Origin: Dolomedes plantarius
Lineage: Eukaryota; Arthropoda; Arachnida; Araneae; Dolomedidae
Assembly: GCA_907164885.2 (NCBI GenBank)
Contig: OU015496.1
Coordinates: forward strand, 107,707,707-107,771,706
DNA: 64,000 nt
Reading direction: 5' to 3'
The position numbers and the translations under genes were made by a program. This document shows, piece by piece, positions 1,830 through 63,111 of this stretch (position 1 is its first letter; every line of letters starts with the position of its first letter). Under the pieces are notes generated by a model, which was not told the DNA's origin, searched no databases, and was given only the letters and a program-made list of their open reading frames with translations.

Positions 1830-2164
1830 CTGTTAAGGCTTCGAGAAATTAAAAGATATATTTAAAGGTTATTTTTAATAAATTACCTGTATTGACATTT
1901 CACAATTAATGCAATGGACGAAACCATAGAAAACATCCAGTTTCAGTGATTAACGGGCAAGAGTGTATACGTGATGGAAGAGTTCAATTTTCTTTTGATT
2001 GCTTGGAAAATTTTAGATAAACTTAGAACAAATTTTATTTTTTTTCACATTTTGTAATGATTTTATAACTTCAAATGCATTTAAATATAAAATATCTGTA
2101 GATATAAAAAAAAAATTCGCGAATCATTTGAAAATTAGTTTAAAAAATTTAATGCATGTTTAAT

Positions 2165-2166
<2 letters not shown>

Positions 2167-2224
<58 letters not shown>
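2167..2224. repeat. (TA)n microsatellite
   Basis: A nearly pure alternating TA tract of about 58 bases. Similar tracts occur near 36437-36531, 50452-50530, 55002-55058 and 63113-63183. Confidence 0.95.
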
Positions 2225-2226
<2 letters not shown>

Positions 2227-3622
2227 TGAATCAAATGCTTTATACGCAATTTTTCTCCTTTTGCGAATAGAAATATTTTCTAAATAATTTGTGTCCAGAG
2301 TTTACTAAACGAATTTTTTAATACAAAGAACAAAAAAGTACCGTAATTTTTGCGTTAGAGATTATATTTCAAAAAATGTTTTCAGAATTTTTTCTCTTTA
2401 CAGAAAATTCTGACGACACAGCCAATAGAAAATAGAACAAGGGAAAGCTGAAAATAAAACTCATATGGACCTTGCAAGGAATATCTCTTTTTTAAAAAAG
2501 GCAAATCAATAAAAATTCTATTCCGTGATAAACGGGCTAAAAGTACAGAAAAATGTGCATCAGGTTACACATATACAATACAGCATTAAGGCTGCTCGGT
2601 GGTAGTTATTGTGTTCAGTCAGCGCAGTTTTAACTTATGGAGAACATTTTCCCAATGATTTTCAAATTTGATTTGTTTGCTTGCACTGACATTCGCTCCA
2701 AGAGATGGCACGCCAGGCGCATATCACGTGCCTGTTTTTTTTTTGGTTGATTTTGTTCGGTAAAGTGAGTTGTTGCTAGTGGCTTCGCATTAAATAATCT
2801 TGTTAAATTTGTCTCTTTATGTCAAAGCCTCACTCACAATTACGTTCATCTGCGTCGCAATTAGGATTTATAGATTTAAAAAAAAAAAATTGTACTCCGT
2901 AATAGAGAAAGAATTCTTTTCCTACGCTATCTTATTCATTTTAGAAATTTCGTCCACCAAATGAAATAATTTGACGCCCGGTGACGTAACGATTAAAAGC
3001 TTCAAGCTGCCACACCACGGGTCCAGGCTTTAAGGTATCCGTACACCTTCGGGGGTGATTTTTTGAAATTTTTTGAATTTTGTCTTTTTATCTATTTTTT
3101 ATGATGACATTTAAGTTAAAACTTGAAAAAATATATATAAAATTTAGCTGTTACATTAAAATAATTTTTTTAGGGGGAGAAACTGGAAAAAATTGGTTAA
3201 AATTTGACAATCCGCATTGCATGGTAACTCAAAAACAAACAAATATATTACAATTTTGTAAATTGCAAAATGAAGATAATAACTGTCTGTGGGGAATAGT
3301 CTATTCACAAGATTGAACTATGTATACCTCAAAGTTTATAGCACTTAAAGTACTGATGTTCATAAAAATCACTTAAAATTCATTGTCACTTGCAATTTAT
3401 ACCAATGTAAACAAAAAACTAATCAATCTGCAATCATGAGCATACTCTATTCCCTTTATAAATATATATAGATAAAGTATGCAAAATTTTAAGGCATTTT
3501 AAGCGTAACTTTTTATAATAGGATGAATTGCGTTAAGAGAAACGATGAAAAAATTCATTTTGAGAAAACGCTAAAAATAACTTTATAACACATTTCTTAC
3601 TTTAAAAATAATTATTTTCGTA

Positions 3623-5328
3623 TTAAAATCCACCATATTTATAAACTTCAACCTCTTGGCTTTCTGCAACACTTATTTTTTTTACCTAAGTGCTCTGAAA
3701 ATTTTCCTGCGTCTCTTTGAAGCAGGAACAGAATGACGTATTGAATCATTCTTTCTAACGTTGTCTAAATGGTTATAGGCTTGCAATGTAAAAAATCCTG
3801 GATAACTAATATCCAACTTGTTAAAAACATTCAGACAACCTTTATATCCATCATTAAATTGCAATACTGCATCATACGCACCAAGTTTCATTGTTTTCAA
3901 ACAAACAAATATCTCTTTTGGTAATTGTTGTCATATTATGCCATTCAGGCATTCGTTTGCATTTTGAGTTTTACCGTGGAGACACTTGCTAAAGAGTTCT
4001 CTTGAGCACAAATCTAAGTATACTGGCTTTACAGCATTCAATACCTCTTTTGGTAGACCAGCATACTTATCTTTAACAGATGTTCCGCATGCCAGTGCTC
4101 GCTGAAAGAAGCACCAGCTGTCTTTGCCCAGAGGACACTGCCCATGCATATGTTTTCGTGAACTGGATGCACAGTGGAATAATGCAGCAATAACATTTTG
4201 CTGCATTGCGTTTAGGTTACCAGTATTGTTACGTATAGCAATTCCATAGTAGTTCTGAAGTCTGTCTATAAATGTATCGGTCAGTTTCCCTTTTCCAGAC
4301 AGACCCTTGGTTTTTGATTTTAATTTTCGCAGGCGGGACCCAACACGCTTTTGAATATGGCCTATACATTCAAATTTTGTGACACTGTTTTCACCGTATG
4401 TGTCTTTTACGCTTATGAATCCTTTGGAATCGCCATCACCATAATATTCAGTATACTGAAGCTGGCGTCTGTTTTCAGACCTTGAGAATATACGTGACGC
4501 ACCAACGATTTCCATTTTTGACGCTGAGCCTTGAAAGTTACACTGGCATACATGATCAGCTTTCAATGACTCGTATTCCAGGTTTTTAGCCATCTTTTCT
4601 AGCTTTTTACATGTTGGACAGTATGATGACATGACCTCCAGATCCAATACTTTTCCACTGTCGATGGAAATTGCTGCAACACATCCGTTTAAAGAAGTAT
4701 AGCCTCTCCGCTGCCATGTTCCGTCCACTGAAACTCCACATTTCACAATTTCTTTGCCAAGATTTTCCTGCTTCTTCACTATGTCAGTTGCAGCCTTTTT
4801 CATAGAGTCCTCTGCTACTTCAGAAACAACTTTCAACAGTTTTTGTTCATGAGAAGTATATGCAGTTTTGGTCAATCTAGGTAAATTCAGAGTTGCACAT
4901 AATTTATAAGCAGCTGAAAATCCTTTACCTATTTGGCGCATACCATATACTAGTCTCGTATTTACTTCAGGGAAATTTACATGTTTTTTAGAAGAGGCAA
5001 AACCCTTCTGAAACTCACACCCTTCACAACTCAAAAGGAAATGAGAACATAATCCATATCTAGTTTCTTCTTTAAATACTAGCTTCTCAGAATAGCACAT
5101 TGGGCAGCAGAGTTCAGAAAAAACACTGGAAAGAATATCTAAATCAAAAATTCTATTTCCAGACATCGCTCCATTAGTTTTATCCGAGTCTAAAACAGTA
5201 TCAACTTTAGACTTTATACAACTCGCAGTGCTTTGTACACACTCATCTACGTCATCGTTTTTGACATTTTTTGTAAAACGATTTCCGTAAAACTTGCGTT
5301 TTCGACTTCTTCCAATACTTTTACCCAT
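3623..5328 (-). pseudogene. Mutator-like (PF20700-type) transposase, one nonsense codon and one frameshift
   Basis: The likely start is the Met of MGKSIGRSRKRKFYGNRF at 5328; a Met upstream at 5418 adds only a hydrophobic leader. Visible features are paired cysteines (LCCPMC with FLLSCEGCEF), then the core CGVSVDGTWQRRGYTSLNG, with the D of SVDGTW a candidate catalytic residue, EVMSSYCPTCKKLE, TEYYGDGDSKGF (two more candidate acidic residues), KFECIGHIQKRVGSRLR and LQNYYGIAIR. An in-frame TGA at 3931-3933 replaces what is probably a Trp (NGII stop QQLPKEIF). The frame then reopens to RRKIFRALR at 3685. An A8 run there shifts frame, after which VAESQEVEVYKYGGF matches the usual end of these proteins, stopping at 3623. 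The copy is recently dead: about 560 codons are otherwise intact. It lies antisense to the SINE host and in the same direction as the FAS1 gene. Confidence 0.82.
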
Positions 5329-5589
5329 TTTTACCAGAGAAAAGTAAAAACTAAATAGATTTAAAAACTTTAAAAAGCCAATAAAAACAACGCGGCAAAT
5401 CTGCAGATATGTAAACAATCGCTTTTGAAATATAAGTTTGTTGCCAAGTTTAGGAATACAAGAGTGAAAATTATGTTGCCAGATATGTTTCCAAATATTT
5501 ATAAATCCCTTGATTTTTATTTTTAAGTATTTCCTTTGACGTATAACCCAATTTCAGCGTTAAATCTAAAAAAAGAACGATGTAAACAA

Positions 5590-5650
5590 ACATTTTGGCT
5601 TACTTCCGGTTTGCAGAATGACACTTCCGGTTGTAAAATTCTGCGACATG
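5590..5650 (-). promoter_or_regulatory. Two direct copies of an ETS-like motif upstream of the TTAA-element transposase
   Basis: On the plus strand ACTTCCGGTT occurs twice, at about 5602-5611 and 5622-5631. It contains the ETS-factor core (CCGGAAGT on the other strand), about 275 bases 5' of the transposase start and inside the element. This is plausible as transposon promoter DNA. That is an inference from motif and position only. Confidence 0.3.
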
Positions 5651-7022
5651 TAATATTTAAATTGCTGTAATTCGGCTTCTAATTAAGATAGAAGCATAAT
5701 TCAAACGGAATTTGAAAGATAAAAGATTGGGCTTTAATGTTATTGCAAAAAACAAAAAACGATATTTTGACCGAAAATGCCGTTTTAAAGGTGTACGGGT
5801 ACCTTAACCCTGCGACTGGGCAAGGTCGACTTAGCCTTTCATCCCATGAGTGGGTCGGTAAAATGAGGACTAAGCATGCTTGGGAACTAACTCTAGGGGT
5901 CCTGCGGCAGGCTGACCAACTGCCCGAGACATATGCCGTATGGCACCCAAACCCCACTGTCAAGAAAGTGGAGATGGACACCACAGGCCTTGGTCCACAA
6001 TGGAGTGTTCGCGCCATTGGTTAGTTGAATGAAACAATTTGCACTTTAAAAATCCAGTATACCACATGTTGTTCTCAAATAATTCAAATTTGAATATATT
6101 ACTTGCGTTTCTTTTGAAGAATGAAAATGACATTAGAGTAAAGAATTTTTTTTTCTCTATTATGGAGTATAATTTAAAAAATAAATCTCTGGACAATCAT
6201 TGGAAATATTTTCTCCATAGGTTAGGAGCGAATCCAATATTTCTACTACTTATAAGCCTTAAAGCGATGTATCTGCCAATGCAACTCATCTGAGAAATAT
6301 AATAGATGACTTTCTCTCAAAAGTCGTAAAGTGAGTTTTAAGACAAGGAAAATAACACTTTTTATGAAAAAAATATATAATTTTCGTGCCGCAAAATTTC
6401 CTTCCGGAGGCTTTCCAAAACCTACTCTCTTTTCCCTTGCCTGTTGTTAGATAAAGAGTTATTTTTCTTTTCCTTCTAACTCTACAGATATCGTTCATAA
6501 ACTCTAAAGTTGTCAGTTTACAAACGGAATAGTGTTAATGAAAACTTTTTTAATTAAGAATTTTATTTTAAAAATAGTAGAAGCGTGTTTAAAAGAGCAT
6601 TTTAAAATAAACTCTTATATAAAAACTAATATAAAATACTTGGGATTAAGAATTTTGTGTATGTGTTTCGCATTTCTGTTTGCTATTTCTTGCTGTGTTT
6701 TATTTACGGCCTTCGGCGAGAGACAAAATTCTAATCTGCTTTGTGCTCTTGTAATTATATATACACTTTATCTGATTTTTAAGTAGCTTATATAAATTAT
6801 TTTAACTGAAATTTTACTTCAGATTTAAAATTATTTATTTGGAATTGTTTAAAATAATATAAAATAAAAATAATAAAATTTATTTCCCTAACGATATTGT
6901 TCATTGAAATAAATATATTTTCCATGAAAATTTATCTCCTTACAATCGATATAAACTGTTTCCAATCGCTATTAATTTTACTACGTTATCAATGTGATAG
7001 TATTTCTTATGGAATTACTTAC

Positions 7023-8847: not shown

Positions 8848-10257
8848 CACTGCTGGCCACCCAAATTGCAACACCAAGAAAGACAACAGATATCACAACA
8901 AAATTTATTTTGTAGATAACATGTTGACCAAGTATCAAATGATTAAATTTATAGACTTCTGTGAAGTGTGGTTCCTGCCAAAATCAGTTGCCAGAGTAGC
9001 CGCCATTGTTGGAGATCACCGCTGCCACACGCCTCGGCATTGATTCAAAGAGACTTTGGATGAGTTCTTGGGGTACAGCAGACCAAGCAGCTTCCACACG
9101 TTGCCAAAGTTGATCTGCTGTGGCAGCTGGGGATGGAATCTGGGTCAATCGTAGAGCAACCGTGGACCACATGTTTTCTATCGGCGAAAGATCCGGAGAG
9201 CGAGGCGGCCAGGGAAGTAATTCAATCTGGCGATTGAAGAAGAACCGTTGGACAATGCGTGCCACGCGTGGTCGCGCATTGTCCTGTTGAAATATGGCTG
9301 TGGGCAAGCCCTGAAGGTAAGGAAAGACAACTGGCTCCAACAGCTCGGAGATGTAGCGCTGGCTGTTTAAAGTACCGGCAATGCGTACTAGAGGTGTGCG
9401 AGAGTGATATCCAATACCTCCCCATACCATAATACCCGGTGCAGGACCAGTGTGGCGGTGCATATCGCAGCTGTTCCGCATTCCCTCTTCACGGTGTCTC
9501 CAGACTCGAATGCGACCATCGTGGTGTTGCAGACAGAAGCGTGACTCTTCAGTAAAGACAATTTCATTCCATTCTGCCGTCCACATCCTTCTGTCATCGC
9601 ACCATTGGCGGCGGAGAAGTCTGTGGTTCTGCGTCAAGGGTAGACAAAGCAATGGACGTCTTGCGGACAGACCACTCTGCTGTAAACGGCGTCGAATGGT
9701 ACGCGCAGACACTGGATGATGCGTTACAGACTGCATGTGCTGTGCTATGGTTCGTGATGTGACTGAGTGATCCGTCACTGCCATGCGCACAATTTGCCTG
9801 TCATCACGTGAAGTGGTGCGCTGAGGTGGATGCGATCGAACACGCCGGTCCGTCGTACCCTCATGCATCCAACGATCACATATCCGCAATTCAGTTGTTT
9901 GGTTTCGTCCAACACGACTACCGATTTCCCTGAAAGATATTCCACAATCTCGGTAGGCCACTATCCTTCCTCTGTCGAAATCGGATACTTAATCAAAAGA
10001 TTATACCTGTTTTCGACGAGGCATAATTGATCGTTTTATTTGAAAAAACCACAAGAAAAACACAATTGCCGAACTTGAAATCGTCGAAATCTCCAAGCCT
10101 TAAATAGCGCTTTGAAGTGGCGCCACATGCGCGCGTGATGTGCGTCTGCGCTGAAATTCTAATCATTTGCATATCTCACCTCCGCTAATGCATGTTGTAA
10201 ATTTCATGTTATTTGCATGTTTCCTTCAGGGTGTTGCATTTACAGTGGCCAGCAGTG
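8848..10257 (-). mobile_element. Tc1-like transposon nested in the long-TIR element
   Basis: The left end CACTGCTGGCCAC and the reverse complement of the right end are terminal inverted repeats of roughly 26 bases, with ATTGCAACACC and ATGCAACACC as the inner parts. Both ends abut TA (8846-8847 and 10258-10259), the Tc1/mariner target duplication. The element is 1410 bp, near the usual size of an autonomous Tc1, and carries one transposase pseudogene. Confidence 0.85.
8984..10024 (-). pseudogene. Tc1-like DD34E transposase, inactivated
   Basis: The family start (ATG at 10024-10022, MPRRKQV) is followed by two in-frame TAA codons, at codons 8 and 12, before FDRGRIVAYRDCGISFREIG. The 325-codon open frame that remains has no ATG at its head. 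Domains in order: paired-type helix-turn-helix (FREIGSRVGRNQTTELRI), second HTH (VSARTIRRRLQQSGL), DDE core. Catalytic positions are FTEESRF (the first Asp is replaced by Glu), FQQDNARPRV (second Asp present) and PDLSPIENMW (final Glu present). The stops and the altered first acidic residue both argue against activity. The rest of the frame is open, so the loss is recent. Confidence 0.87.
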
Positions 10258-25547: not shown

Positions 25548-26633
25548 GAATACTTCTTATTAATTTAAATGAAACACTATGATAACTCGAAAGGTGGCGG
25601 AAAAGAGATAATGTTCTAATCAATATAAATATCACATCGAAAATGCGTTACGATGAAAGGATATTTTATGCTGAGAACAGTTTTAAACGGTGGTGAGCTG
25701 TTTTGAAATTGTCATAACCGTTTATTACAACCGTCTAAAAATCGAAATAAAGTTGCTTTGTGTCTATATTACGTTGTTTCTAATAAATTATTTGAGTTTA
25801 GATAGCAAATAGTCTTTTTTAGCTTTACTTTTTACTTGTTAAGCCTAACTCATGAAACAAAATGTATGCCATAGCCTGATATTGTCACGTGAAAACTGAC
25901 AAGACGGTTAAATACAACAGACGTGGAGTATAGAAATTTTATTGGAAGTAATGAAGAGCAGCAACTTATATAACCTAACAGAACAATCAAATTAATTCAA
26001 TTTACATATACTGGAATATTCTGGAAATTTCTAGAAAGGAGATTTAAATTAAATAAATAAAACACAGCCCGCGACCGGCGGGATTCGAACTAAGAACCGA
26101 GCGCTTCGAAAGCAACATCGCTACCCCATAGCCACCGGTTCACTCTCAAGAAATGGAAAATACGGTAATATATTTATGAAGCGGTCACTCCGGAAGCGTT
26201 CCAGATTGATAGGTCTGTGCTATTATTAGGATAGATACTTCTTATTAATTTAAATAAAACACTATGATAACTCGAAAGGTGGCGGAAAAGAGATAATTTT
26301 CTAATGAATATACATATCACATCGAAAATGCGTTACAATGAAAGGATATTTTATGCTGAGAACACTTTAAAACATTGGCGAGCTGTTTTGAAATTGTCAT
26401 AACCGTATATTACAGCCGTCTAAAAATCGAAATAAAGTTGCTTTTGTGTCTATATTACGTTGTTTATAATAAATTATTTGGGTTTAGATAGCAAATAATC
26501 TTTTTTAACTTTACTTTTAACTTGTTAAGCCTAACTCATAAAACAAAATGGATGCCATAGGCTGATAAATTTATGAAGCGGACGCTCCGAAAGCGTTCCA
26601 GAGGTACACAACTGGGCTATTATTAGGATAGAT
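25548..26633. repeat. Tandem duplication (unit about 390 bp), one copy carrying a SINE
   Basis: Unit 1 (25548 to about 26233) and unit 2 (26235 to about 26633) share GATAACTCGAAAGGTGGCGG, AATGCGTTACGATGAAAGGA, TTGTCATAACCG, TTGTTAAGCCTAACTCAT and CTATTATTAGGATAGATAC in the same order. Unit 1 is longer by the insertion at about 25885-26168. Confidence 0.85.
25885..26168 (-). repeat. tRNA-derived SINE inserted in one tandem unit
   Basis: On the minus strand the head reads ACCGGTGGCTATGGGGTAGC, then GTTCTTAGTTCGAATCCCGC. This gives an A-box-like GTGGCTATGGGGTAG and a perfect B-box core GTTCGAATCCC. ACCGGTG and CGCCGGT can still pair as a 7-bp acceptor stem with one wobble, and TTTCGAA is a plausible anticodon loop (TCG). 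The anticodon stem is poor, so this is a SINE head rather than a working tRNA. The paralogous unit at about 26565 supplies the empty site. Confidence 0.7.
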
Positions 26634-27531
26634 ACCTTTCTTAAAAAACATTGGAATTTTGCGTTTCTAAATTTGCTTTTGTTTTTTCGGTACGATAATT
26701 AGAAATGAAATGAGAGCGATTTGAAGATCAGCAGCACAGCTATGAATTTCAATAAAAGTTGAAAACTTTAATCGTGTTTTCTGAAGAACTTATTTTTCAT
26801 CAAAAATGTAAACGACTCTTGTGATAACTCAAAATCTAACCATGATAAGTCTAAGAAATTTTTCACGTATATCTTTCATAGTACCAAGAATGGAATGGAC
26901 TACAGATTTGGTTCCAGGCGTAATATTTGTTGGTTTATAGTTCCCTTTATAGAAAAATCCCAGGAAAAGTTACTAAAATTTTACATTTAATTGCATATAA
27001 TGACCTGTTTTAAAAATAAAAAAAAAGATTTCAAGATATCGATTAGCTCTTGGGTCATTTCACGCAGGAGGTACTTACGTACATATGACAAACAGAAATT
27101 AATGTTATATGGATAATTTTCTTTTTTAGAGCTAGAGCCGTTTTTGTAAAAAAATTGCCTAATTTCGACCCCAAATAATCAATTTTGTAAAACGTTGTAA
27201 CGGAACTAAACATAAATAAATAAGCAATATATTGTATAGACCGCAAGAGAGCGTTCCTAGCAGTTCGTAACCCCAGTAATAAAAGTGTTTTTGAAAAACA
27301 GCAGAACCACTGATGACTGTCTAGCTGGAATGCGTGTGAAAAGGGAATACGTCCCCATGCTTTTCATGCCTAATCACTGCAATCGTGGACTGTACTCAGT
27401 TCCAGAAGCATGGGTAAGATATACTAAATTTGTATTAGTCATAAGTCAGCATAAAGCTGCATATGCTGACTAAAGACTAATATAAATTATGCTGATTAAT
27501 GCTGAATAATGACTAATATAAATTAATGACT

Positions 27532-27559: not shown

Positions 27560-28392
27560 TTTGGTTTCTAGTTTTTTATCGGTAACACCATGGGGATCAT
27601 GAATGCTGATTTTAGCGTTAAAAGTTGTATAGTTATGGCTTATTTTTTCACTATTTTCCGTATTTTTGTGTTCTATCCCTTCGAAACATAACAGAAATTT
27701 ACACAAGTACAGTTTTTGAAAAAAAAGTGCTCCGCAGGTAGTCAGATACTTAAAAAAGAAGACAACGGGTCCTATTCACGGGACTAGGTGAATAGAAAAT
27801 AAAAATTGCTTTATGAACTTATGGTAAGGTTTCCATAAATAAACCCCTCCAGGCGCTCGTTTAACGAACAATTTTGCACCTACAGCCTTTGCTACCAATT
27901 GCTATTTTTACCTAAAAATGTAACCACCATAAATTTTAATGGAACGACGAAGTGTATCACAGGTACACTATGTTTCCTTTTTGAATAATTCTGCGTCCGT
28001 ACTTATCTTTACGTCTTCGAGCGCAAAGACCTGCTTAAAAGAGCGGCGCTCGTAAAGCGAGTTTCTGTTACAACTTCGACCGACTAATTCCACTTTATGC
28101 CCCACTTCGCGATGTTTTATGACTCCCAGCCCAGGGTCTCCGAAAAGTACTGACAATAGAGGAAAAGAAAGGAAAAAAAAACTACGCGTTTTTGAAATCA
28201 GTTGTACTCGAGTTTCGCTGATAAGGGGGAAACAAGTTCAGTCCTAATGTTTCCAAATGTGTCCCCAGCGTTAAAATAAAATATTAGGATATTTTTAGAG
28301 GCCCTGGCGCTGTGGGGAAAATTCATTACACAAATTGAAGATAGATGAGTTGGGAAGTCACATTTGCACATTCATGGTAATATTTTAGGAAA

Positions 28393-29005
28393 ATAAGTTT
28401 TCTTTTTTTGAGAAAGGAAGACGTAGGGCTCATTTTTTTGTCCTAAATTGTTTTAAAATTATTTCATTATTCTGAGGAAAAGTGACGTATTAAGGCTTTA
28501 AATGAGTAGGAAAATGTTAAGGGTTCCTTAGGAATCAGACCTCACAATTTACCGCCTTAATTATAAAATGAAGTTAGTTGCATATTAAATTATACACATA
28601 ATTTAATCACAAGAAAACAGCATTCAAATCTTATACATCTAGGCTATAATTTACACACAACATTTATATTAAATTTGCTAGAGTATTTTCTCGCAACATA
28701 AAAATAAGTTTTCTTTTTCGAGAAAGGAAAACGGAGAGGTCATTTTTTTGGTCCTAAATTGTTTTAAAATTATTTCATTATTCTGAGGAAAAGTGACGTA
28801 TTAAGGCCTTAATTATTAGCTAAATTTAAAGGGTTCCTTCAGAATCCCACTTCACAATTTACCGCCTTAATTTTAAAAATTAAATTAGTTACATATTAAA
28901 TTATACACATAATTTAATCACAAGAAAATAGCATTCAAATCTTATACAGGTAAACTATAATTTATGCACAACATTTCATTGCTAGAGTTTTTTTTTTCGC
29001 AACAG
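28393..29005. repeat. Tandem duplication of about 305 bp
   Basis: The second unit (from about 28699) repeats AATAAGTTTTCTTTTT, GTCCTAAATTGTTTTAAAAT, CTGAGGAAAAGTGACGTATT, CAATTTACCGCCTTAATT and ATTTAATCACAAGAAAA of the first in order. The two differ by scattered substitutions. Nothing coding is seen. Confidence 0.85.
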
Positions 29006-33260: not shown

Positions 33261-33999
33261 TGATGTCAGTAGTTGTTTGCGAAATTTTAATTTTTAACTA
33301 AAAGTGGAGAAACAGCAGATAGATAATTATTCTTTGCAAATTCTTACATTTTATTTTTGTTACCGTAAGTCGTTCGTTTAGTCCACGTCCGTGCTAATTC
33401 CAAAGCCAAATCGCTTAAGTCTACACTTTGAAATTTTAGTGCCGAAGCACCTGATTGACGCCTAACTTTTTTTCATTCAAAATAAATTTCCAAAATAATA
33501 AAGATTAACACCAGTCAATGAAAAACTTTTTTTGGGGTCATCGAATAATAACTTTTTTTTCAGACGCCAATCAAGTTAAGTCCATAACTCTAATATATAT
33601 CGTTGCAATAATGCAGTTCAAACGCAGGAGCAAGTACTTAATGATAATGGTAATTCGTCTAGTATTGTTTCATCAAAAAAGTAAAATAAATCAGTCAGTT
33701 ACAGTCTAACTGCTGCAGAAATAAGTACTTGTTTATAATTAAACTATTATTTCAATTTTTTTGTTGTAAAATAATAACTTAAAGACTGCATTGGATGTTA
33801 TTACTTTTCCTCACTTGCCAAATCGGTTTAGTCCCTTATTCACGCAAAAATCTATATATTTAAGTTGCTAAGCCGTCATTTTGGGCAGGCCGTGAGAGAA
33901 AACTACTGCATCAATTTACTTCATTTTGGTTTTACACGAAAGATTGTAATCTGTAGATATGTCATATTTGGTTTTTGTAACCGCAATTTCTATTAATTA

Positions 34000-34733
34000 G
34001 CGATAATTTACAATTAAAAAAATTATTTCTGTACATGCTCAGTGGCATGTTTAAATCTGGCTTTAGAAACTCACTGTTTCTGCGTATGCTCAGTGACATG
34101 TTTTAATGATAAACACGTTTATTCCGAGGAGTCTCTCTCTCTGCCATTTTTATTTTTACGATAATTATGTTTGTGAAATATAAGATTAAACCTAATAGAA
34201 ACTACTTATTTCGCGCTGTTTAATTAGCGATAATTTACAATTAAAAAATTGCTTTCTGCGCATACTCAGTGACATTTTTAAATCTGGCTTTATATACTCA
34301 CGAAGCACGATTTCAAACACATTAATTTGTTTCTGCGCATTACTATGATTCTCAACATTTGGCAATGATGTGTTGAGTATAATTTGTGTAATAGTGCATT
34401 TATTTACTAATTAGCCGTTATGTTTTGAGGTATTAACTAGTTATTATACTGACGACGATTACTCATTACTTAGATTTTATATGAAGGCCTTGTTTAAATA
34501 GTGGTCTAACTACACTTTAAAAAAAAATGGAATTTGCCTCACTTTCATATTTATACAAGTCATTTCCATCGTATTTTGAAACTGGTACGCCTCCAGCTTA
34601 TTTCTGCTGCCAACAGAGGGCATTACAAATCAGACTCCAGCAGCCATTTCTAAGCACTCATTAGACTTTAAGGCTCTGTACCTCAAAATGAACAAGAATG
34701 GAGCTGGACAGTTATTCAAATAAGATCTTCATG
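34000..34733. repeat. Interspersed repeat containing a MITE (34479-34733), inverted relative to 57585-58560
   Basis: ATTAGCGATAATTTACAATT occurs twice (about 34000 and 34205). Segments such as CACATTAATTTGTTTCTGCG and TGATGTGTTGAGTATAATTT reappear inverted around 58395-58470. The GAAGGCCTT MITE at 34479-34733 lies at the same relative place as its relative at 57585-57840, next to TAGATTTTAT, so the MITE was probably already part of the repeat when it spread. Confidence 0.6.
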
Positions 34734-36536: not shown

Positions 36537-37979
36537 CGGGTGGCCATAATTAAACTGACAGTGCTCACAGTGTTCTGTAGCGCGATCTATTTGCGAGAAT
36601 GACGCCACATTTTGTAGGAAGATTAAACAAGACAGGGGACGAAGGATTCCGCGAAAAAATAAATTAGTTCCAAAAGTCACCGCTAGGGGAATATTTGGCG
36701 CTGTGTTATAAAAAATAGAGTGTTAACAAATGCAAATTAATTAAAATGATTTCCCCCAGGCATTGTCTTTGCTGAAGTGCCAGAAGGACAAAGCTGTTCA
36801 ACATGTGGCGATATTTCTCTCCGGTAACAGAACAGGTTTCCGGTCCTGTCGGGGTAATGTTCTCATAGAAGAATGGACCTACGATAAATTCCGCTGTGAA
36901 CCCACACCAAACAGTTACCTTTGGTGAATGTAAGGGAATTTCTGTGACTGCATGTGGTGATTTGTCATCCCAAATTCGGCAGTTCTGGGTATTCACAGTT
37001 CCATGCATGTAAAAGTGGGCCTCGTCTCCCCATAAGATTTTCCACGGCCAAGCATCATCCACCTCCATTCTGGCAAGAAAGGTGAGAGCAAAAGTCAATC
37101 GCTTATCATGGTCGGGGTACATTAACTCCTGTACACGGCTGATCTTGTACGGATAGAAGTTGATAATCTTTCGTAAGATTTTCCATACCGTACTGTAAGG
37201 CATATCCATATTCCGAGCTAATCCACGAGCGCTAGAGGTGGCAGCAATATTGTTTGGTCCTCTGTCGACAATCGCTGTGGCAACTGCTTAGATTGTATCC
37301 TGTGGTACAATTTTTCGTCCTCTGCCTGACTGAACCTTCAGAGAACCTGTTTTCTCAAACGTCGCAACCATTGCTTTTAGCCCATTAACTGACACAGGAC
37401 CGTTACCTTTACGCATTTTTTTGTGCGTTCTAAAAGCACGAAGAGCGGCTGACGCGTTGCACTGGTTGAGGTAAAAGAATTTGACCAGTAACGCACGCTC
37501 GACTAAAGAAGGAGACATTGCACATAAACTTTCAATCCGATTGATTCGAAACGTAACACATTGCCTTTTAAAACCCAAGCAGCTGGCACTGTGCCGATGG
37601 ATGTAACGTGAAATTTGAATAAAGAACTTCTTCTTCTGCTCAGCGTACGTGATATTGCAGATCACGAGACTTTATCGGTGTTTATGTAGATTTTACGCTT
37701 TTTTAAAAGTGTTGCCATATTGCACTTGAACTAAATAAGAAAATGTGCATAATAAAAGGTAATTTTATTTCGTATTAATTTGCGTTTGTTATCACTCTAT
37801 TTTCTATTACACAGCGCCAAATATTCCCCTAGCGGTGACTTTTGGAACTAATTTATTTTTTCGCGGAATCCTTCGTCCCCCGTCTTGTTTAATCTTCCTA
37901 CAAAATGTGGCGTCATTCTCGCAAATAGATCGCGCTACAGAACACTGAGCACTGTCAGTTTAATTATGGCCACCCGGTA
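36534..37979 (-). mobile_element. IS630/Tc1/mariner-type transposon with 207-bp TIRs
   Basis: The first approximately 207 bases (36534-36742) and last approximately 207 bases (37773-37979) are inverted repeats with few differences, starting CACCGGGTGGCCATAATTAA and TACCGGGTGGCCATAATTAA. TA borders both ends. At 1446 bp it holds a 3'-deleted transposase. Confidence 0.85.
36706..37518 (-). pseudogene. DUF4817-type transposase, one stop and C-terminal deletion
   Basis: It starts at ATG 37518 (MSPSLVERALLVKFFYLNQ), the DUF4817 helical domain: NASAALRAFRTHKKMRKG and SVNGLKAMVATFEKTGSLKV. A TAA at 37288-37290 (PQDTI stop AVATAI) interrupts it, and the same frame then continues through YSTVWKILRKIINFYPYKIS, the first catalytic Asp in ILWGDEAHFYMHG, VNTQNCRIWDDKSPHAV and SPKVTVWCGFTAEFIVGPFF to LLALQQRQCLGEI. 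The second catalytic Asp (usually QDGAPPH) and the final acidic residue are absent: the sequence runs directly into the inner edge of the left TIR. So the deletion removed roughly the last third of the gene. Confidence 0.85.
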
Positions 37980-39757: not shown

Positions 39758-40245
39758 CAAACGAAACCAATTGTTATTTACTCTAGGAATTTCTGTATAA
39801 TCTTTTACTGTTATTCCTATAATTTACCTGAGTTATGTTTCCCTGAGTATCACACATTTATACAGGTATACATTAGTTTTGTTTCATTGTAAGTTATTGC
39901 TTACAACAATGATATTATCTTTAGTTAATACTGGCAAACGAAAACAACATTTCTATAAAAACATACGAGTTATTCCTTATCAGAACCTCAAACAAAGTAA
40001 AAATTATTTTGAAACAAACTTGGAAACCAAAATTGCAGCTGAAATATACTTGTGTGGTTGGCAATTAATTTGTGTACCTTGTACACGATGCCTGTTGAGG
40101 CAAAGTTACTTCCAAAAAACCATCAAGTTTCTAGATTTCCCATATGAAACACCTATTCTGAGATTCAATACCAACAAAAATGAAATCAGTGAGAAATACA
40201 GGGTTTAAAAAGGAAATGCTTAAATGTAAAAGAATGCTAACTTAC

Positions 40246-40393
40246 GTGTATATGAATCGCCAATCGCATTGGATTCGTTAACTATAGACAACTCCACTTT
40301 AATGTCGTCGCCGTAAGCATCACTAGGGTAGCTATTGAAGCTCGCTAGACGGGTGAAGAGGACATTTCTAGGTATAATGTGACCTCGGATGAC
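40246..40393 (-). CDS. Fas1: Fasciclin-1-like gene, middle of a FAS1 domain
   Basis: This is a 148-base exon. The acceptor is weak (ccttttTAAAG) and the donor good (gtaagt). It encodes VIRGHIIPRNVLFTRLASFN, then SYPSDAYGDDIKVELS and IVNESNAIGDSYT. VIRGHIIPRNVLFT matches the conserved strand after H1 in the fasciclin-1 type of FAS1 domain. It starts on a codon boundary after DKW of the previous exon and leaves one C for the next. NESN is a possible N-glycosylation site. Six diverging tandem copies of its first bases and acceptor lie directly 5' (see the array at 40370-41260). Confidence 0.93.
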
Positions 40394-41260
40394 CTTTAAA
40401 AAGGAAAAACGTCACAGAAAATTCAGTTTCCAATCGAATATGACCACTAAAAAAATGTTAGTGAATGACAATTTAGCGTTTAACATATTTTTTAATACAC
40501 ATTTAATAAGGTATTTATATGATATTAGAAAAGAGATCATTACCAGGTATAATATGACCTCAGATGACCTTTAAAAGAATAATGAAACAGGAAAGCTGAG
40601 TTTTTAATACAATAAGACTAATAAAAAGCGTTAGTGAATTACAATTTAACATTTAACATATATTTCAATACGCATTTAGTAAGATTTTTATATGATACTA
40701 GAAAAGTGGTCATTACCATGTATAATATGACCTCAGATGACCTTTAAAAGAATAACTTAACAGGAAAACAGAGTTTTTAATAGAATAAGACTAATAAAAA
40801 ACATTAGTTATGGAAAATTTAATATATATCCTGTATTTCAATACACGTTTAGTAAGGTTTTTATATGATATTAGAAAAGAGTTCATTACCAGGTATAATA
40901 TGACCTCAGATGACCTTTAAAAGGAATAACGTAACAGAAAATTCTGTTTCAAACCGAATAAGGCTAGTGAAAATGTTAGTGAATGATAATTTAATGCCTA
41001 ACATGCATTTTAATATACATTTGGTGAGGTGTTCCTGTTAAATTTGAAAAGAGGTCATTTCCACGTATATGTGATCGCGGAAGGCTTTTCAAAGGAATAA
41101 TGTAATAGGGAAATTCAATTTTCCAAGCGAAAAATGTTAGTCAAATATAATTTGAAAGTCATCTTACATTTTCATATACATTTAGTAAAGTTTTCAGATG
41201 ATTACGAGTAAAACTCGCATTTCTAGATATCTCCGATGACCTTTGAAAAGAAAATGTATC
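40370..41260 (-). repeat. Tandem array of exon-start plus acceptor, six units of about 173 bp
   Basis: The sequence at the exon start (plus strand GGTATAATGTGACCTCGGAT then GACCTTTAAA) recurs at about 40560, 40733, 40906, 41073 and 41230 as GGTATAATATGACCTCAGAT and more diverged forms. Spacings are 175, 173, 173, about 171 and about 157. Between units, TTAGTGAATGACAATTT and TTTATATGATATTAGAAAAG also repeat. Each unit carries the equivalent of the first roughly 25 exon bases and the AAAG acceptor. In units 2-4 the third codon, CGA in the true exon, reads TGA. Confidence 0.93.
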
Positions 41261-42995
41261 TCTGAGATTAGGTCGAAAAAGGTCGATTTTAATTGGACTA
41301 ATTAAAGGCTAATCGTTACTCAATTTAAGCTTTAATGTTCTATTAATAATGTTTTCAGGTGATGCATATAACAATAATATAGATGATCTACAAAAGGTTT
41401 ATGCGGAAGGATATTTTCAATAAAGAAATGTTTAACATTCTCTCCGGTTTTATACTAAGTAACACTGTTTTCTCAATTTGCACTCCTTTAGATAATTTTA
41501 AAAATTCAAAATGATCTAATAAGTATTTTAATTTTTTCAACATGCCAAACATTTCAAGCGAATTTTGCAACAATAGTCGCTTGTATAAATACATATGCCT
41601 TTATGAGCACTTTAAACTACACGATTCAAAAGATTTTTTTTAACAGGCAGATAAAATATCAACCAGTTTTAAAATATTACCCATTAACCGCTTAATGCAC
41701 AGTTCCGGGTCTGCACGGGCGACGTTTGTTTCCAGAATTGTGAAACTCCGTGAATAGCGCTCTTTACACGTACGTTCTTTCCCGCGTGAAATGGAAACGA
41801 TTATGGAAACTTTATGGAAACGATTTTGATAATTACGTTTTATGTATAAATGCCATATTTTTTGCGGCGATTTGCTTCTATCTGATAGCCATGGTTCTTG
41901 GCAAGAGCTCTACCTCGAATTTTCCAATGAAATTAAAATTTTTCTTAGCACTGTCATGTCAATTTTACACCACTCCTCTTGAACAGTTTTCCAAACTCCG
42001 TTCAGTGTTCTTGGATGCCGTTTTCGTAAGGGTCACTTTAATAAACTGAAAGCACAAAAGTCCCTTGGAGAAGGTACCTTTGTGATTTTACAGGTATTTC
42101 AGCAATATGATTTAGCAAAAAAGCAGATGAACTTTATATTTAAACATCTTTTTTAACTTCAAACCTTTATGAATGATTTTACTCACAGTGCCGGAAGACA
42201 TTCCTAGTTTCGATGCAACTGATCCTTGAGTCGACGGATTTTCTTTTAGGATCAGAGACACTACTTTCTTGATATTTACCTGCGTTCGAACAATCTTAGG
42301 ATGAGGTTTCGCTGTCACGTTTTCAATTTTACTTTCAGTTAGACTTTTTTTCCATTCAAATTAAATATATTATCTATACCTTTCTTTTAAAATGCCATAA
42401 CCGTGATTTTTACACCGCTTCATAATTTGTTGAGACGAATCTTTTTCCTCGGAAAGACCAGTTACGTAACCTTCGAGCTATCTGTCAATTTTAGGAACAA
42501 TTTTCTAAATCAATCTTTTATTTTGCATTTCAATCAAAACAAAACAATACCATACAATTATTCTGAACTTGCCAAATGTTTATCTTAAAATGCAATCGAC
42601 AAAAATAAATTACAAAATCGTTTCCATAAAGTGAGAGCGACCTTCTGGAAAACCGCTTTGTACACACTATTTGACCGTGCCGTGTCGACGCATGCAGGGA
42701 AAGAACTCTAGGGCCAAAAGTCGACTTCGATTTTTAAACAAAGAGTACAATGTGTAATTCTTAATAACAATTTGTAAGAAGCGGAGAACATGATCTTCAA
42801 AATTTTACCTCCTTTATTGAAATTTGGTTAAGAGTATGAAGGGGGGAAATATGATTGCCAGAAAAAAAAAATCATCCTCTAGAAATAACATACTTATATG
42901 ACTGGACGATAGGAAACATTTTGCTATATACTCTTTATTTGCGTCTGCTGAATGAAGAAATAAATATCACTTATAATAAATAGCATATGTCTTAC
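40394..42995 (-). other. Fas1: Intron between FAS1 exons 42996-43128 and 40246-40393
   Basis: This intron is 2.6 kb. Up to about 41260 it is the decoy-acceptor array. It also holds a solo MITE end at 41755-41786 and a transposase HTH relic at 42112-42360. I see nothing recognisable in 41261-41754, 41787-42111 or 42361-42995. Confidence 0.85.
42112..42360 (-). pseudogene. Helix-turn-helix fragment of an IS630/Tc1/mariner transposase
   Basis: VTAKPHPKIVRTQVNIKKVV then SLILKENPSTQGSVASKLG and MSSGTVSKIIHKGLKLKKMF resembles the DNA-binding N-terminus of IS630-type transposases (R-T-x-x-N-I-K-K-V, then a helix-turn-helix, then L-K-L-K). The catalytic domain is missing: the frame meets a stop after HLLFC. 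No termini were identified. Confidence 0.55.
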
Positions 42996-43128
42996 CCATT
43001 TATCTACTTCTTGCTGCCTATTGAGACTATGTCCTACGCCAGCTCCTACTGGAAGGAAGAATGTGTGGTTTCCTTCGCGAAGGAAAAGCTCCTCCAACCC
43101 TTCGTGCTTCACGCGCGAGTTGAAAGCG
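42996..43128 (-). CDS. Fas1: Fasciclin-1-like gene, H1 region of a FAS1 domain
   Basis: This is a 133-base exon with acceptor gttctcttccag and donor gtaaga. It reads AFNSRVKHEGLEELFLREGN then HTFFLPVGAGVGHSLNRQQE and VDKW. HTFFLPVGAGV is the H1 motif in the form used by fasciclin-1-type domains. Its first base completes Ser with AG from 46130-46314, and it ends on a codon boundary, which the exon at 40246-40393 continues as VIRGHIIP. Its first 44 bases and acceptor are repeated three more times upstream (43085-44390). Confidence 0.92.
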
Positions 43129-43178
43129 CTGGAAGAGAACACAAAAAGCTCAGTGTCAAAATGCATGCCAAACAGTAA

Positions 43179-43368
43179 GGGCCTGTTCACATAGGAGTCC
43201 GTTGCGTAAGGAAAACATGACGTTGAGACGAAAATAAACCAATCATATGCCTCTAAACGATTAGCAATGAAATTTTTAACGCCTATGATTGGTTTATTTT
43301 CGTCTCAACGTCATCTTTTCCTTAACGCAACGCAACGCAACGCAACGGACTCCTATGTGAACAGGCCC
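43179..43368. mobile_element. PIF/Harbinger-type MITE, 190 bp
   Basis: Terminal inverted repeats of about 70 bp begin GGGCCTGTTCACATAGGAGT on both ends, with ACGTTGAGACGAAAATAAAC deeper in. A TAA duplication is at 43176-43178 and 43369-43371. A (GCAAC)n stretch lengthens the right arm. It is absent from the other three units of the array. Confidence 0.88.
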
Positions 43369-43731
43369 TAACGGTATTACAAAAAACGCGTTATCACCAG
43401 GTGTGTGTTTAGAAACTTAGAAAATCGGAAATCAGATTAAAGAGAATACATCGCTTTCTGATCACAACTTTTGCGGGGAAGAAATTTTTTTTTCAAACAT
43501 TGTGCGATTTCTTAATTAAATTAAATGTGTCTTTATATAAATAGCATTAAGCATGTAAAGCTCTTACAATCCTTTGTATTTCACGTTCGAGCTGAAAGCG
43601 CAGGAAGAGAACACAAAAATCTTAGAGTGTCAAATTACATGTCAAACAGTAACGACATTAGAAGAAACGCATCATCACCGGGTGTATGGTAAGTGCCATA
43701 GATACTGAAAACTTGGAAAATCGGAATTTAA

Positions 43732-43905
43732 GGCTCGGTGCACACTAGCGATCCGGTGTCGTTTCGGCACCGCACTTGCGATCAAGAGTACAATAGCGTT
43801 GAACTAACCGACGACGTCTGTGTGAGTCGGTTAGTTCAACTCTATGTACTTCTGATCGCAACTGCGGTGCCGTAACAACACCGGATAGCTCGTGTGCACC
43901 GAGCC
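43732..43905. mobile_element. Second PIF/Harbinger-like MITE, 174 bp
   Basis: The left end GGCTCGGTGCACACTAGC and the reverse complement of the right end, GGCTCGGTGCACACGAGC, pair, and the arms extend to GTTGAACTAACCGAC and its inverse at the centre. A TAA duplication is at 43729-43731 and 43906-43908. It differs in sequence from the MITE at 43179 and occupies a different position in the next array unit. Confidence 0.85.
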
Positions 43906-44905
43906 TAAGATTAAAGAGCATACATCGCTGTGTGATCATAATTTTTGCGGGGAAGAATTTTTTCAAATATTTTGTAATATCATTTTCGTCAAATGTGTCT
44001 TTATACAATTATCCTTATGCCTATAAAGTTCTTCTTACCCTTTGTGCTTCACTCGTGACTTGAAAGCGCTTGAAAAGAACACAAAAATCTCACGTGTCAA
44101 AATACATGTCAAACAATAACGATATTACAAGAGACGCTTTATCATCAGGAGTATGGTAAGTGTCATAGATACTGAAACTGAGAGAAACGGAAATTCGCTA
44201 AGCAGCATCCATCGCTTTCCGTTGATAATTTTTGCAGGGAAGTTTTTTCTTAAATATTTTGCAATTTTTTTGTGCGCCTTTAGATAAATATCATTATACC
44301 TTTAAAGCTCTTCCAACCCTTCGTGTTTCAAGCGCGAGTTTGAAGCAACTGGAAAAGACAACAAAATGCTCGTAGTGTCAAAAAGCATATACAATATATT
44401 TAAATAGAGGAACATGTAAACATATGACGGATTAAGCTGAAAAAAAACTTGTTATAGTTAACTAACAATTGGAATGGTTTCAAATATTTTGCCTGATTCA
44501 TCGTACTTTTTAATCCAGGGGAGTCCAAGCGAGACACGTGTTATTCCAAATAGCCGTCTATGCTTTAAAAAATACCGTAAAACTCTTCAAACGTTTTAAA
44601 AATTATTACATGTAAATATAAAATATCGTTCATTCAAATAAGTATACATCTTACATAGATTTTAAGTTTTACACCTGGAAAAAAGTCGTAAAATCTTTTT
44701 GAGGACCATGTTGATAGTGCTGATTTCAATGCTGATTTGAATTTCATACAGAGCTTTTGTCATCTACGGATAATCAGCAAACTAGGAAATACACCCCATG
44801 TTTTGATTGTATTATTCACTTAGCTCCAACTAAATGCAACGTTGTTGTGATTTTAAGCAGTTTGGATTTTAAACAGTTGCGAGTTGTTACAACCTTAATT
44901 TAAAA

Positions 44906-45618
44906 CAGAATTCTTAACCTTTTTAATAGTCAACAACCCCTTGAATCTGAAAATAAGCCCTCGCACCCCTTGAAAAATGTGTTTCTATTTTTTATTTAGG
45001 AAAAGGCATTTATTGTGAGATAATTTATTTTCTGCATAAAAAAATTAATACATTTACAATGCATACTATATTATTACATATGAAACAATATCTACATTTT
45101 TAATGGATACGTGATACGTTGTTGTAGTTTGTTCATAATTATCCATTTAAAACGAGGCTCTGTGTTTGAAAGGGCCACTCGTAAGTCATCAGATGCATTT
45201 AAGCGATTTCTGGCCTTGATGTACAAAAGTGGTGAAAAATTCATTTTATAAAGGTAAGTGGTGGCAAATGGTAAATAAGTCTCTAATGCTGCTTTTACCA
45301 ATTCTGGATAAAGTTTTAACTGCGTACACCAGAACTGTTCTAAGTTTAGTTTTTCAAATTCCCTTTCAATACGTGCATTAGATCGTATTGTGATAAGATC
45401 GTCTTTTAATAAAACATTGTCGTCCATTGAATTTAGGTCAAACAAAAATGGATTGAATATCTATCTATTAATTTTGTCTATATTTCCTGTAGAAAAGTAT
45501 CCATCAAATGATTCATTCAATTAGTGATTTTTATTAAAAATTTAGAACCTTCTCTCGCACCCCTAGAAATGCTCTCTCGCCCTCCAGGGGTGCTTGCAAC
45601 CCCGGTTAAGAACCCCTG
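44906..45618 (-). mobile_element. hAT element relic, 713 bp
   Basis: The ends CAGAATTCTTAACC and (reversed) CAGGGGTTCTTAACC, with an 8-bp duplication ATTTAAAA at 44898-44905 and 45619-45626. The empty site with one ATTTAAAA survives in the next tandem unit near 45890. It carries only the C-terminal transposase fragment. Confidence 0.88.
45092..45445 (-). pseudogene. C-terminal fragment of a hAT (ZBED/SCAND3-like) transposase
   Basis: It reads REFEKLNLEQFWCTQLKLYP, then YLPFATTYLYKMNFSPLLYI and KARNRLNASDDLRVALSNTE followed by PRFKWIIMNKLQQR. This is the hAT dimerisation region as found in ZBED5/SCAND3-like transposases (L-P-F-x-T-T-Y-L-C-E-x-x-F-S). All upstream parts (zinc finger, catalytic core) are missing. 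The Cys-Glu of the usual motif is replaced by Tyr-Lys. Confidence 0.8.
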
Positions 45619-46129
45619 ATTTAAAAGAACAGAATTGTAAGAATTTCTAAGTCACTCTATTTCGTTTACCCATTCCGAGATACGTACCAATTTGACGCCA
45701 CTTTTGGAAATATTTAGACGAAATCGATAGTCTTACAGCTGATTTGAATTTTACATGGAGCTTTAATTTGTGATCCACGGATGACAGCAAAATGAATAAT
45801 ACACCCCGGGTTTTCATAGTATTATTCACTTAGCTCCAACTAAATGCAATTTCGTTGTGATATTAAGCAATAGTGATTTGTCACAACCTTTATTTAAAAG
45901 AACGGCATTGTCAGAATTTCTAACTCACTATATTTCGTCTCCCCTTCCCGATACGTACCGATTTGACGCCACTTTTGAAAACATTTAGACGGAATCGAAC
46001 AGCGAAATTATGAAACTTTTGTTATGGCCAGCGGCAATGTCCTTCAATCTCACCTCGATCGATCCGCAGAAGACGTAGGTGCAGGGGGCGTTAATATACG
46101 ACAGACAGAAAAGCAATCCCCTAACTCAC

Positions 46130-46314
46130 CTAAGGGGTTCCCGGATGTCATACAACTCTGGCTGATCTAGAAGTTGGAACGCCGTTGGCGGGAGGGAAGT
46201 GCTGGAAACATATGGCACCAGTATTTCGTCGATGACGTAAAGTATCTGTTTCGAGTGGTCTTGTGACAATAACTCCTCTGAGCGAGTTATCTTCGCATTG
46301 TTCACGAAGTATTC
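46130..46314 (-). CDS. Fas1: Fasciclin-1-like gene, end of a FAS1 domain and start of the next
   Basis: This is a 185-base exon with acceptor ttttctttgcag and donor gtgagt. It encodes EYFVNNAKITRSEELLSQDH, then SKQILYVIDEILVPYVSSTS and LPPTAFQLLDQPELYDIREP followed by L plus two bases. ILYVIDEILVPY is the H2 end of a FAS1 domain, and PTAFQLLDQPELYDI the start of the following one. It starts on a codon boundary after GGRV of 60624-60730, and the AG it leaves is completed to Ser by the exon at 42996-43128. Confidence 0.93.
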
Positions 46315-61430: not shown

Positions 61431-63111
61431 CATCAATTTTATGTGTGACTATTAATCTGTTACATAATATTTCATATCCATAATGAAAGGAGGGTAACTA
61501 GTTTCGAACACATTAATAGTTCTAAAGAACTTTTAACTTAAATTATTTACATATAATTGATAAATATAACAATTAATTAGTTCTATAATGTTTAACCCCT
61601 TCCTTCTCGCTTCCGTCAAAACTACGGGGAGCGGTTTCGCCTTCTATTTGTCGTGCTCGTGATATTTCCGGACTGGAGTGTTTAAAAGTAACACACCAAA
61701 AAGATCAAAACAATCCATTTCATTTACCCTGGAAAATTGTTATTTCTTATTTTACATACCAGATGGCAGCACCAGACTATTTATAATGTAATTGAGGATG
61801 GTTTTTTTTAAAAACTAGATGTGGCATATCAAGAAATAAATGGAACCCTCCAGAAAAAATAGGCACTTTTATTACCGTTTTCTTGAATGCAATCGTTAAG
61901 GGGTTAAAATCCAGCATGAATGAATAAAAACTAGTTTTGAAATAATAAATAGCGCTAAAGAACTACTGATAGGAAAAAGTAATACATAACAGTTCTATTG
62001 CGATATCAATTACTTCTAAACTAGTTGCGAACTATTTATTGTTTACTATAAATTTCAAGAAATTGTGGGTTCCAATTAATAGATAAATACATTTATATAC
62101 ACTTTAAGCAAATGAACAAGATTTTGAATCTATTCAAACAGTTACCTATATGGGCAAACTACAAATTATCATTGAATGTATGTATGTACTCGAAATTTAC
62201 CCTACAGATGTAAAAAAAAAATTTAAAAAAATATAAAAAAATTATTACATCAATTTTTATATTTCAGTTAAACATATAACTGTAAGATGCAAGTCAAATA
62301 ATCTATTATCATATTTAAAATACACCCATTGTGATAAATTTTAAGATGGAGAACTACTTTTACTTCAAACCCCTAAACAGTAATATCCAAGTCAAAATAA
62401 TTACAACTTCCACTCTCCTACACAATGCTATCAACAAACACACTGTATCACCAACAAACTGTATCACATCAAACTGTATCAAACTGTACCACACTGTATC
62501 GACAAATTACAAATTATCATTGAAGGTATGTATGTACTCGAAAGTTTACAGATGTCAAAAAAATTTTAATTACAATTTTTACATTTCCAGTTATACATAT
62601 AGCTGTACGATACAAATCAAATAATTGATTACCATGTTTAAAATACACCCATTGCGATAAATTTTAAGATGGAGCACTACTTTAACTTCAAACCCCTAAA
62701 ACAGGTCAAAATAATTACAACTTCCATTCTGATACACAATGCCATCAACACATCTTTCGTTGAGAAAATCTCAAAGGAACTCCCTGGGGAAAGGAAACAT
62801 ATTCTGTCTAGCAATCTTGGGGATTCAGATACATTTTCTTTCGCAGAAAAATAGTTCAAAAGAAACCATCTTTAAAATGTCTTTAGATTTCTAGCGCTCT
62901 CCGAAATTTTATTCACAACTGCAGTCCCTGAAGCCAGTTAGACGTAAAAATCAAACCCCTCAAGAAGAGACTTGCTAAATCTCAAATTTGAACCCACTTC
63001 GATATCCAGAGAACCTAAAGAATAGAAAGTATGACTGCGTTTGGAAAACAAATCAGAAAAGATAAGTACACATGATGCCAAATGAATAAAATAGAGTTTT
63101 GATTTAAAATA

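Follow-up and report, generated by a model that had tools for sequence, protein, structure and literature searches.

Decaying tandem copies of the 3' splice site precede two consecutive exons of a spider fasciclin-1 gene

Two consecutive exons of a fasciclin-1 cell-adhesion gene in the spider Dolomedes plantarius are each preceded, inside the adjoining intron, by tandem copies of their own 3' splice site and exon start. The array at exon 3 holds four copies and the array at exon 4 holds six, and the first of these was amplified before two different miniature transposable elements (MITEs) inserted into it. Both arrays are probably passive, decaying local tandem duplications that would have arisen independently at exons 3 and 4, and whose acceptor-like sites would rarely be used. 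Judged by the tests applied, their presence lies within what this array-rich genome yields by chance.

The window, by which we mean the whole stretch of 64,000 nucleotides of contig OU015496.1 that was analyzed, comes from a genome assembly of 2.78 Gb. The gene lies on the minus strand and was identified as fasciclin-1 because the translations of its exons match spider fasciclin-1 proteins best: the exon 2-3 stretch shows a 79% match to the protein of Trichonephila clavipes, and the fasciclin-1 proteins of Uloborus, Oedothorax, Nephila, and Argiope match the exon translations at 76-81%. Searches by tblastn with full-length relatives placed 8 exons in the window and 5 in its flanks, giving 13, a count that includes the 5 flanking exons with unrefined borders. 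Exon 3 reads SAFNSRVKHEGLEELFLREGNHTFFLPVGAGVGHSLNRQQEVDKW, its split first codon included, and starts after its acceptor in phase 2, so that the joined reading is REPL-S-AFNSRV; the junction PLS/AF is the same in relatives. The translation of exon 4 starts with VIRGHIIPRN. None of the 17 aligned relatives' proteins carries an insertion where exon 2 joins exon 3 or exon 3 joins exon 4; only proteins covering the junction were counted, and the protein of D. plantarius itself was absent from the database matches. Among solved structures, the exon 2-3 peptide found no match, while exon 6 matched TGFBI and periostin. A search of the whole window against Rfam gave no match at gathering thresholds.

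Table 1. Features of the fasciclin-1 region, in positions of the window; acceptors are given by their last intron base on the minus strand
Feature	Position	Strand	Remarks
Exon 2, upstream exon	46130-46314	-	tblastn; donor GTGAGT, first intron base 46129
Exon 3, intact	42996-43128	-	tblastn with spider relatives; donor first base 42995
Exon 4, VIRGHIIPRNVLFTRL...	40246-40393	-	tblastn; donor first base 40245
Exon-3 array, copy 1 block	43085-43175	-	true acceptor 43129 (AG 43129-43130); first ~45 nt of exon 3; intron part ~46 nt
MITE 1	43179-43368		190 bp; terminal inverted repeats; TAA on both sides; in the spacer between copies 2 and 1
Exon-3 array, copy 2 unit	43385-43663	-	279 bp; TG at original acceptor 43601; in-frame stretch 43568-43591; GTAAGA at 43567
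Exon-3 array, copy 3 unit	43664-44131	-	291 bp without MITE 2; AAG acceptor 44069; in-frame stretch 44039-44068; AGG/GTAAGA at 44038
MITE 2	43732-43905		174 bp; TAA on both sides; in the spacer between copies 3 and 2
Exon-3 array, copy 4 unit	44132-44411	-	280 bp; outermost; CAG acceptor 44349; homology fades at 44388-44405
Exon-4 array	40356-41300	-	acceptor G at 40394 (true), 40569, 40742, 40915, 41085, 41241; units of 156-175 bp
Two-unit tandem duplication, exon 2-3 intron	44731-45998		offsets 1007 and 273 bp; interrupted by hAT-like insertion

In the exon-3 array, the end of the intron, the acceptor, and the first ~45 nt of the exon are present four times, head-to-tail (Table 1). Once both MITEs are removed together with one TAA apiece, the acceptors are spaced by 279, 291, and 280 bp, and a self-comparison of the remaining 1,330 bp gave a largest off-diagonal match of E = 1.6e-123. 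A 120-nt probe placed at the exon-3 start found three further copies in the window (E = 8e-15, 3e-14, and 1e-11). The original prediction of four copies of the exon start and its acceptor, with homology reaching 44 nt into the exon, is thus borne out by both searches. Minor corrections concern the last acceptor, which is present but lies at 44349 rather than 44348, and the spacing, of which the first two values stood while the third is 280 and not 279 bp. Tandem Repeats Finder, a tool of the kind proposed with that prediction, was run as well, and the exon-3 array is absent from its output.

Just ~45 of the 133 nt of exon 3 are duplicated, and since only exon starts were copied at both exons, duplicated whole exons of the mutually exclusive type were ruled out. 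Pairwise identity between the copies is 66-87% before the acceptor and 70-86% after it, within the exon part; the spacers common to copies 2-4 are 74-81% identical. The intron part had likewise been described as repeated, which holds for three spacers but not for copy 4, where no upstream spacer is detectable; the array therefore has four acceptor blocks but three spacers. Copy 4, the outermost, is also the most diverged, with K2P distances of 0.31-0.35 vs 0.23 between copies 2 and 3. Because the copies are only 66-87% identical, the exon-3 array is real and old. An assembly artefact, which had been named as the case that could overturn the prediction, is extremely unlikely in the face of this divergence and of the MITEs private to single units.

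Both MITEs, which we take to be of the TAA-target, PIF/Harbinger or Tourist type, share with such elements their short size (190 and 174 bp), inverted ends, TAA duplication, and many copies. A first look at the genome returned 1323 candidate relatives of MITE 1 and 1114 of MITE 2; among the 40 scored for each, the best relatives of MITE 1 were 90-94% identical, and those of MITE 2 up to 91-93% over positions 1-174, matching exactly the 174 bp that had been taken out. Elsewhere in the genome, MITE 1 is flanked by TAA/TAA in 6 of the 7 copies examined and by TAA/TTA in the seventh, and the one further copy of MITE 2 that was examined carries TAA on both sides. As each MITE occurs in one unit only and the paralogous sites are empty in the other units, amplification of the array preceded both insertions, in agreement with the order of events originally proposed. 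The nearest scored relatives of the MITEs, at 90-94% identity, are also closer to them than array units 2-4 are to one another (K2P 0.23-0.35).

The start of exon 4 is repeated in the same way, an array that the original prediction had missed. It consists of six copies of acceptor and exon start, the innermost being exon 4 itself, and each copy holds ~40 nt of an exon of 148 nt. The five upstream copies, here called decoys d2 to d6, all retain the AG, and in each an in-frame stop would follow within 10 codons on read-through. Identity falls outward, from 88% between d2 and d3 to 76-77% for d4, 69-71% for d5, and 58-60% for d6 against other decoys. The outermost copy is again the most diverged (K2P 0.58-0.62 for d6 vs 0.13 between d2 and d3). 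Of the outermost spacer only a weak in-register remnant is seen, at 41365-41329, where a seventh unit would be expected (E = 0.039 when 411 bp were searched, but 6.6 for the whole window). Separately, the exon-4 start (40356-40400) contains the layout AGGTCA-4 nt-AGGTCA across the acceptor, which is kept in d2-d4. This is the layout of a nuclear-receptor DR4 site, and here it is probably a coincidence of the code for VIRGH.

How far such arrays exceed the background was assessed by counting diverged local arrays with offsets of 100-1100 bp, of which 12 random 10-kb segments of the genome held 16, the 8 flanking segments 8, and the 6 segments of the window 7. Arrays cover 11% of the random segments, from which 1.4 of 13 exon starts would be expected to be affected; 2 were seen (P(>=2) = 0.43). 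When the 7 arrays of the window were shuffled, at least 2 of its 8 exon starts were overlapped in 15% of placements. With 120-nt probes, decoys were found at 2 of the 13 exon starts, those of exons 3 and 4 only, and at none of the 13 exon ends. Enrichment of arrays at exon starts is therefore unsupported: exon borders are reached about as often as chance predicts, and array density, the number of exon starts affected, and the micro-exon simulation described below are all near chance expectation.

The splice signals of the copies were scored with matrices of consensus values that are untrained on spiders, and all scores are relative to these. In copy 2, said at the outset to have a broken acceptor, the original AG is indeed TG, but an in-frame CAG 9 nt further inside, created by a CAA to CAG change, had been overlooked. 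This acceptor-like CAG scores 6.2; among the strand's 3,229 AGs it ranks in the top 0.34%, and 7 of the gene's 8 true acceptors in the window score lower. The donor-like GTAAGA that follows 24 nt later scores -0.2, less than any of the 7 true donors. In copy 3 the acceptor is kept as AAG (score 0.7), a form that exons 4 and 8 use too, and 30 nt after it stands AGG/GTAAGA with a score of 5.0, which ranks among the top 0.29% of the 3,398 GTs and exceeds 6 of the 7 true donors. Exons 3 and 6 of the same gene have GTAAGA as their donor. Copy 4 ends its intron part in CAG (score 3.7) but is out of the fasciclin frame through one extra base at its start. The AG thus persists in copies 3 and 4, as had been noted, whereas the reading of copy 3 as open for about 13 codons was too long: it runs for 11 codons in the exon frame and then meets TAA. 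Read through, copy 2 reaches a stop after 9 codons (from the CAG) and copy 4 after 18. All 8 decoys (3 at exon 3, 5 at exon 4) reach a stop when read from the acceptor in the gene's phase, and those with AG at the original place have mostly ordinary acceptor scores, in the top 3-28% of AGs.

Copies 2 and 3 would contain no premature stop if their inner donor-like sites served, as the stretches of 24 and 30 nt that these delimit are divisible by three, in the gene's phase, and stop-free, with the predicted peptides SNVKYKGF in context (24 nt, copy 2) and AFKSRVKHKG (30 nt, copy 3). The two copies may accordingly be read as alternative in-frame micro-exons, included singly or together, and their inclusion would place an insertion at the start of the second fasciclin domain in which the first helix is repeated and lysine-shifted. 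Insect fasciclin I has alternatively spliced micro-exons (PMC8042270, PMC7392893), and the strong copy 3 donor-like site and copy 2 CAG, the GTAAGA shared with exons 3 and 6, and the combination of acceptor-like site, GTAAGA, frame, and open reading in both copies all point in this direction. However, neutral decay also produces such stretches. When the unit consensus was mutated by 10-25% and sites at least as strong as the weaker values seen were accepted, an in-frame micro-exon arose in 18-23% of copies, and at least two of three copies had one with a probability of 0.09-0.13. A donor matching the one in copy 3 in strength appeared in just 0.4-0.8% of copies, a comparison chosen post hoc. 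The donor of copy 2 and the AAG of copy 3 are weak, and no relative covering the exon 2/3 junction has an insertion there. Nor is there excess conservation in the exon part of copies 2 and 3, because this is identical at 31 of 44 positions compared with 187 of 228 in the flanks (P = 0.10), the exon part being, if anything, the less alike. Use of copies 2 and 3 as micro-exons, and with it the lengthened domain start, is therefore unlikely.

Alternatively, the copies could act as poison or decoy exons, whose premature stops or slowing of intron removal would tune the level of fasciclin-1. The AG retained in 5 of 5 exon-4 and 2 of 3 exon-3 decoys, the third having a CAG 9 nt away, and the stop on read-through in all 8 would fit this. 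In addition, GGTAATG follows the acceptor by 25 nt in both d2 and d4, and the exon-derived parts of these two decoys are identical at 41 of 42 positions, compared with 90 of 131 in the flanks; for d3 and d4 the values are 39 of 42 and 94 of 131 (P = 0.005). This excess, seen in 2 of the 6 exon-4 decoy pairs tested, is the result most against a neutral reading and raised the possibility of selection on the exon-4 decoys. The similar block is not confined to the exon part, however, but extends to +85 (33 of 38 and 34 of 38), and in its intron part d4 resembles the true copy (34 of 50) more than it does d2 and d3 (28 of 51 and 29 of 51), which suggests that exchange between units, to which tandem arrays are subject, accounts for the excess and weakens the case for selection. 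Retention of the AG is, moreover, expected for copies so young or so T-rich, acceptor scores are mostly ordinary, and decaying sequence yields stops anyway, so that a regulatory role of this kind is rather unlikely. It is decidedly unlikely that iterated duplication of 3' splice sites has produced candidate families of both kinds at two consecutive exons of this neural adhesion gene, with copies 2 and 3 lengthening the second fasciclin domain at its start and the stop-bearing exon-4 copies acting as a brake. As for the origin of the units, the outermost exon-3 copy lacks an upstream spacer, unlike in a plain tandem duplication, as if the spacer were a dispersed or satellite repeat that carried the exon starts along. 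Neither unit found a match in 225,571 bases of other loci, mostly random or flanking, or elsewhere in the window, and such an origin is highly unlikely.

We infer instead that passive local duplication, followed by decay and exchange, gave rise to both arrays, and that the copies lack use in RNA. A local tandem duplication that began in the upstream intron and broke off ~40-45 nt into the exon would have copied the 3' splice site and the exon start, once at first, and unequal exchange or slippage would then have produced further copies. The innermost copy stays attached to the rest of the exon, so that its coding sequence would be held by selection. The upstream copies would be passengers that decay, occasionally exchange sequence among themselves, and gain MITEs. 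Through them the intron would gain acceptor-like sites whose use is probably rare or absent. Exons 3 and 4 of one gene would each have undergone this process independently, in a host genome in which diverged local arrays make up about a tenth of random sequence. The missing outermost spacer of copy 4 was probably lost or has diverged, and a later insertion in that part of the intron is conceivable, given the hAT-like element in the vicinity, which is flanked by an 8-bp target duplication. Against passive duplication speak the involvement of two consecutive exons and the strong donor-like site of copy 3 and CAG of copy 2.

Several other features of the window were recorded. The two-unit duplication in the exon 2-3 intron (Table 1) was considered as kin of the exon-3 array for its similar period, yet no match was found between them. 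The insertion at 44898-45626 that interrupts it, which presumably belongs to the hAT-like class, spans ~44906-45618 between two copies of ATTTAAAA, as judged by eye, and contains a transposase-like open stretch at 45095-45460 on the minus strand. Further transposase-like open stretches on this strand lie at 3934-5553 (540 residues), 8987-9988 (334), and 36709-37671 (193+127). Other diverged tandem duplications were seen at 25550-26643 (offset 685 bp), 28390-29004 (311 bp), 33993-34301 (227 bp), and 62146-62750 (348 bp), and none of these 4 lies at an exon border of the fasciclin-1 gene. Precisely where exons 7 and 8 join, the fasciclin-1 of Nephila pilipes is longer by four residues (SNNIA for T), which is what a 12-nt micro-exon would give; among the 15 AG-12 nt-GT candidates in intron 7 of the present gene (1838-7022), none reads SNNIA.

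The two arrays provide a clean and datable case of introns that received copies of their own 3' splice site, with four and six copies whose signals have decayed to various degrees, both in one transcript, and with a date relative to two transposon insertions. If any copy were used, it would represent a micro-exon or poison exon born from the exon that it precedes; were the two readings to hold together, such duplication would offer fasciclin micro-exons a way to arise. If none is used, the gene offers a natural test of how well sequences that nearly match a true acceptor are passed over by the spliceosome. A surface-level literature search found no earlier description of such an array.

Poison exons, and decoy exons that promote intron retention, are conserved and have been shown to be used. 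The spider copies resemble them in having intronic acceptor-like sites with early stops after them, and differ in being decaying tandem copies known from sequence alone. Tandem duplication across a splice site is well established as giving rise to new introns and exons (PMC2891723). As in the partial duplications across an exon border described there, a splice site and part of an exon were copied here while one exon stayed intact; in contrast to intron gain by tandem duplication, no new intron was formed, and the copies number four and six, inside an existing intron, rather than two. The first gene in which alternative splicing of a micro-exon was reported is insect fasciclin I (McAllister et al. 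1992, as cited in PMC8042270), and that of Drosophila has two 9-nt micro-exons (PMC7392893). Since such micro-exons are known in insects and no relative covering the junction carries an insertion there, the micro-exon reading is worth testing and no more. The likeness lies in the gene family and in very short in-frame exons between constitutive ones; the insect micro-exons are 9 nt long and come from cDNA, whereas the spider candidates measure 24 and 30 nt, are read from genomic sequence only, and would derive from the exon that follows them.
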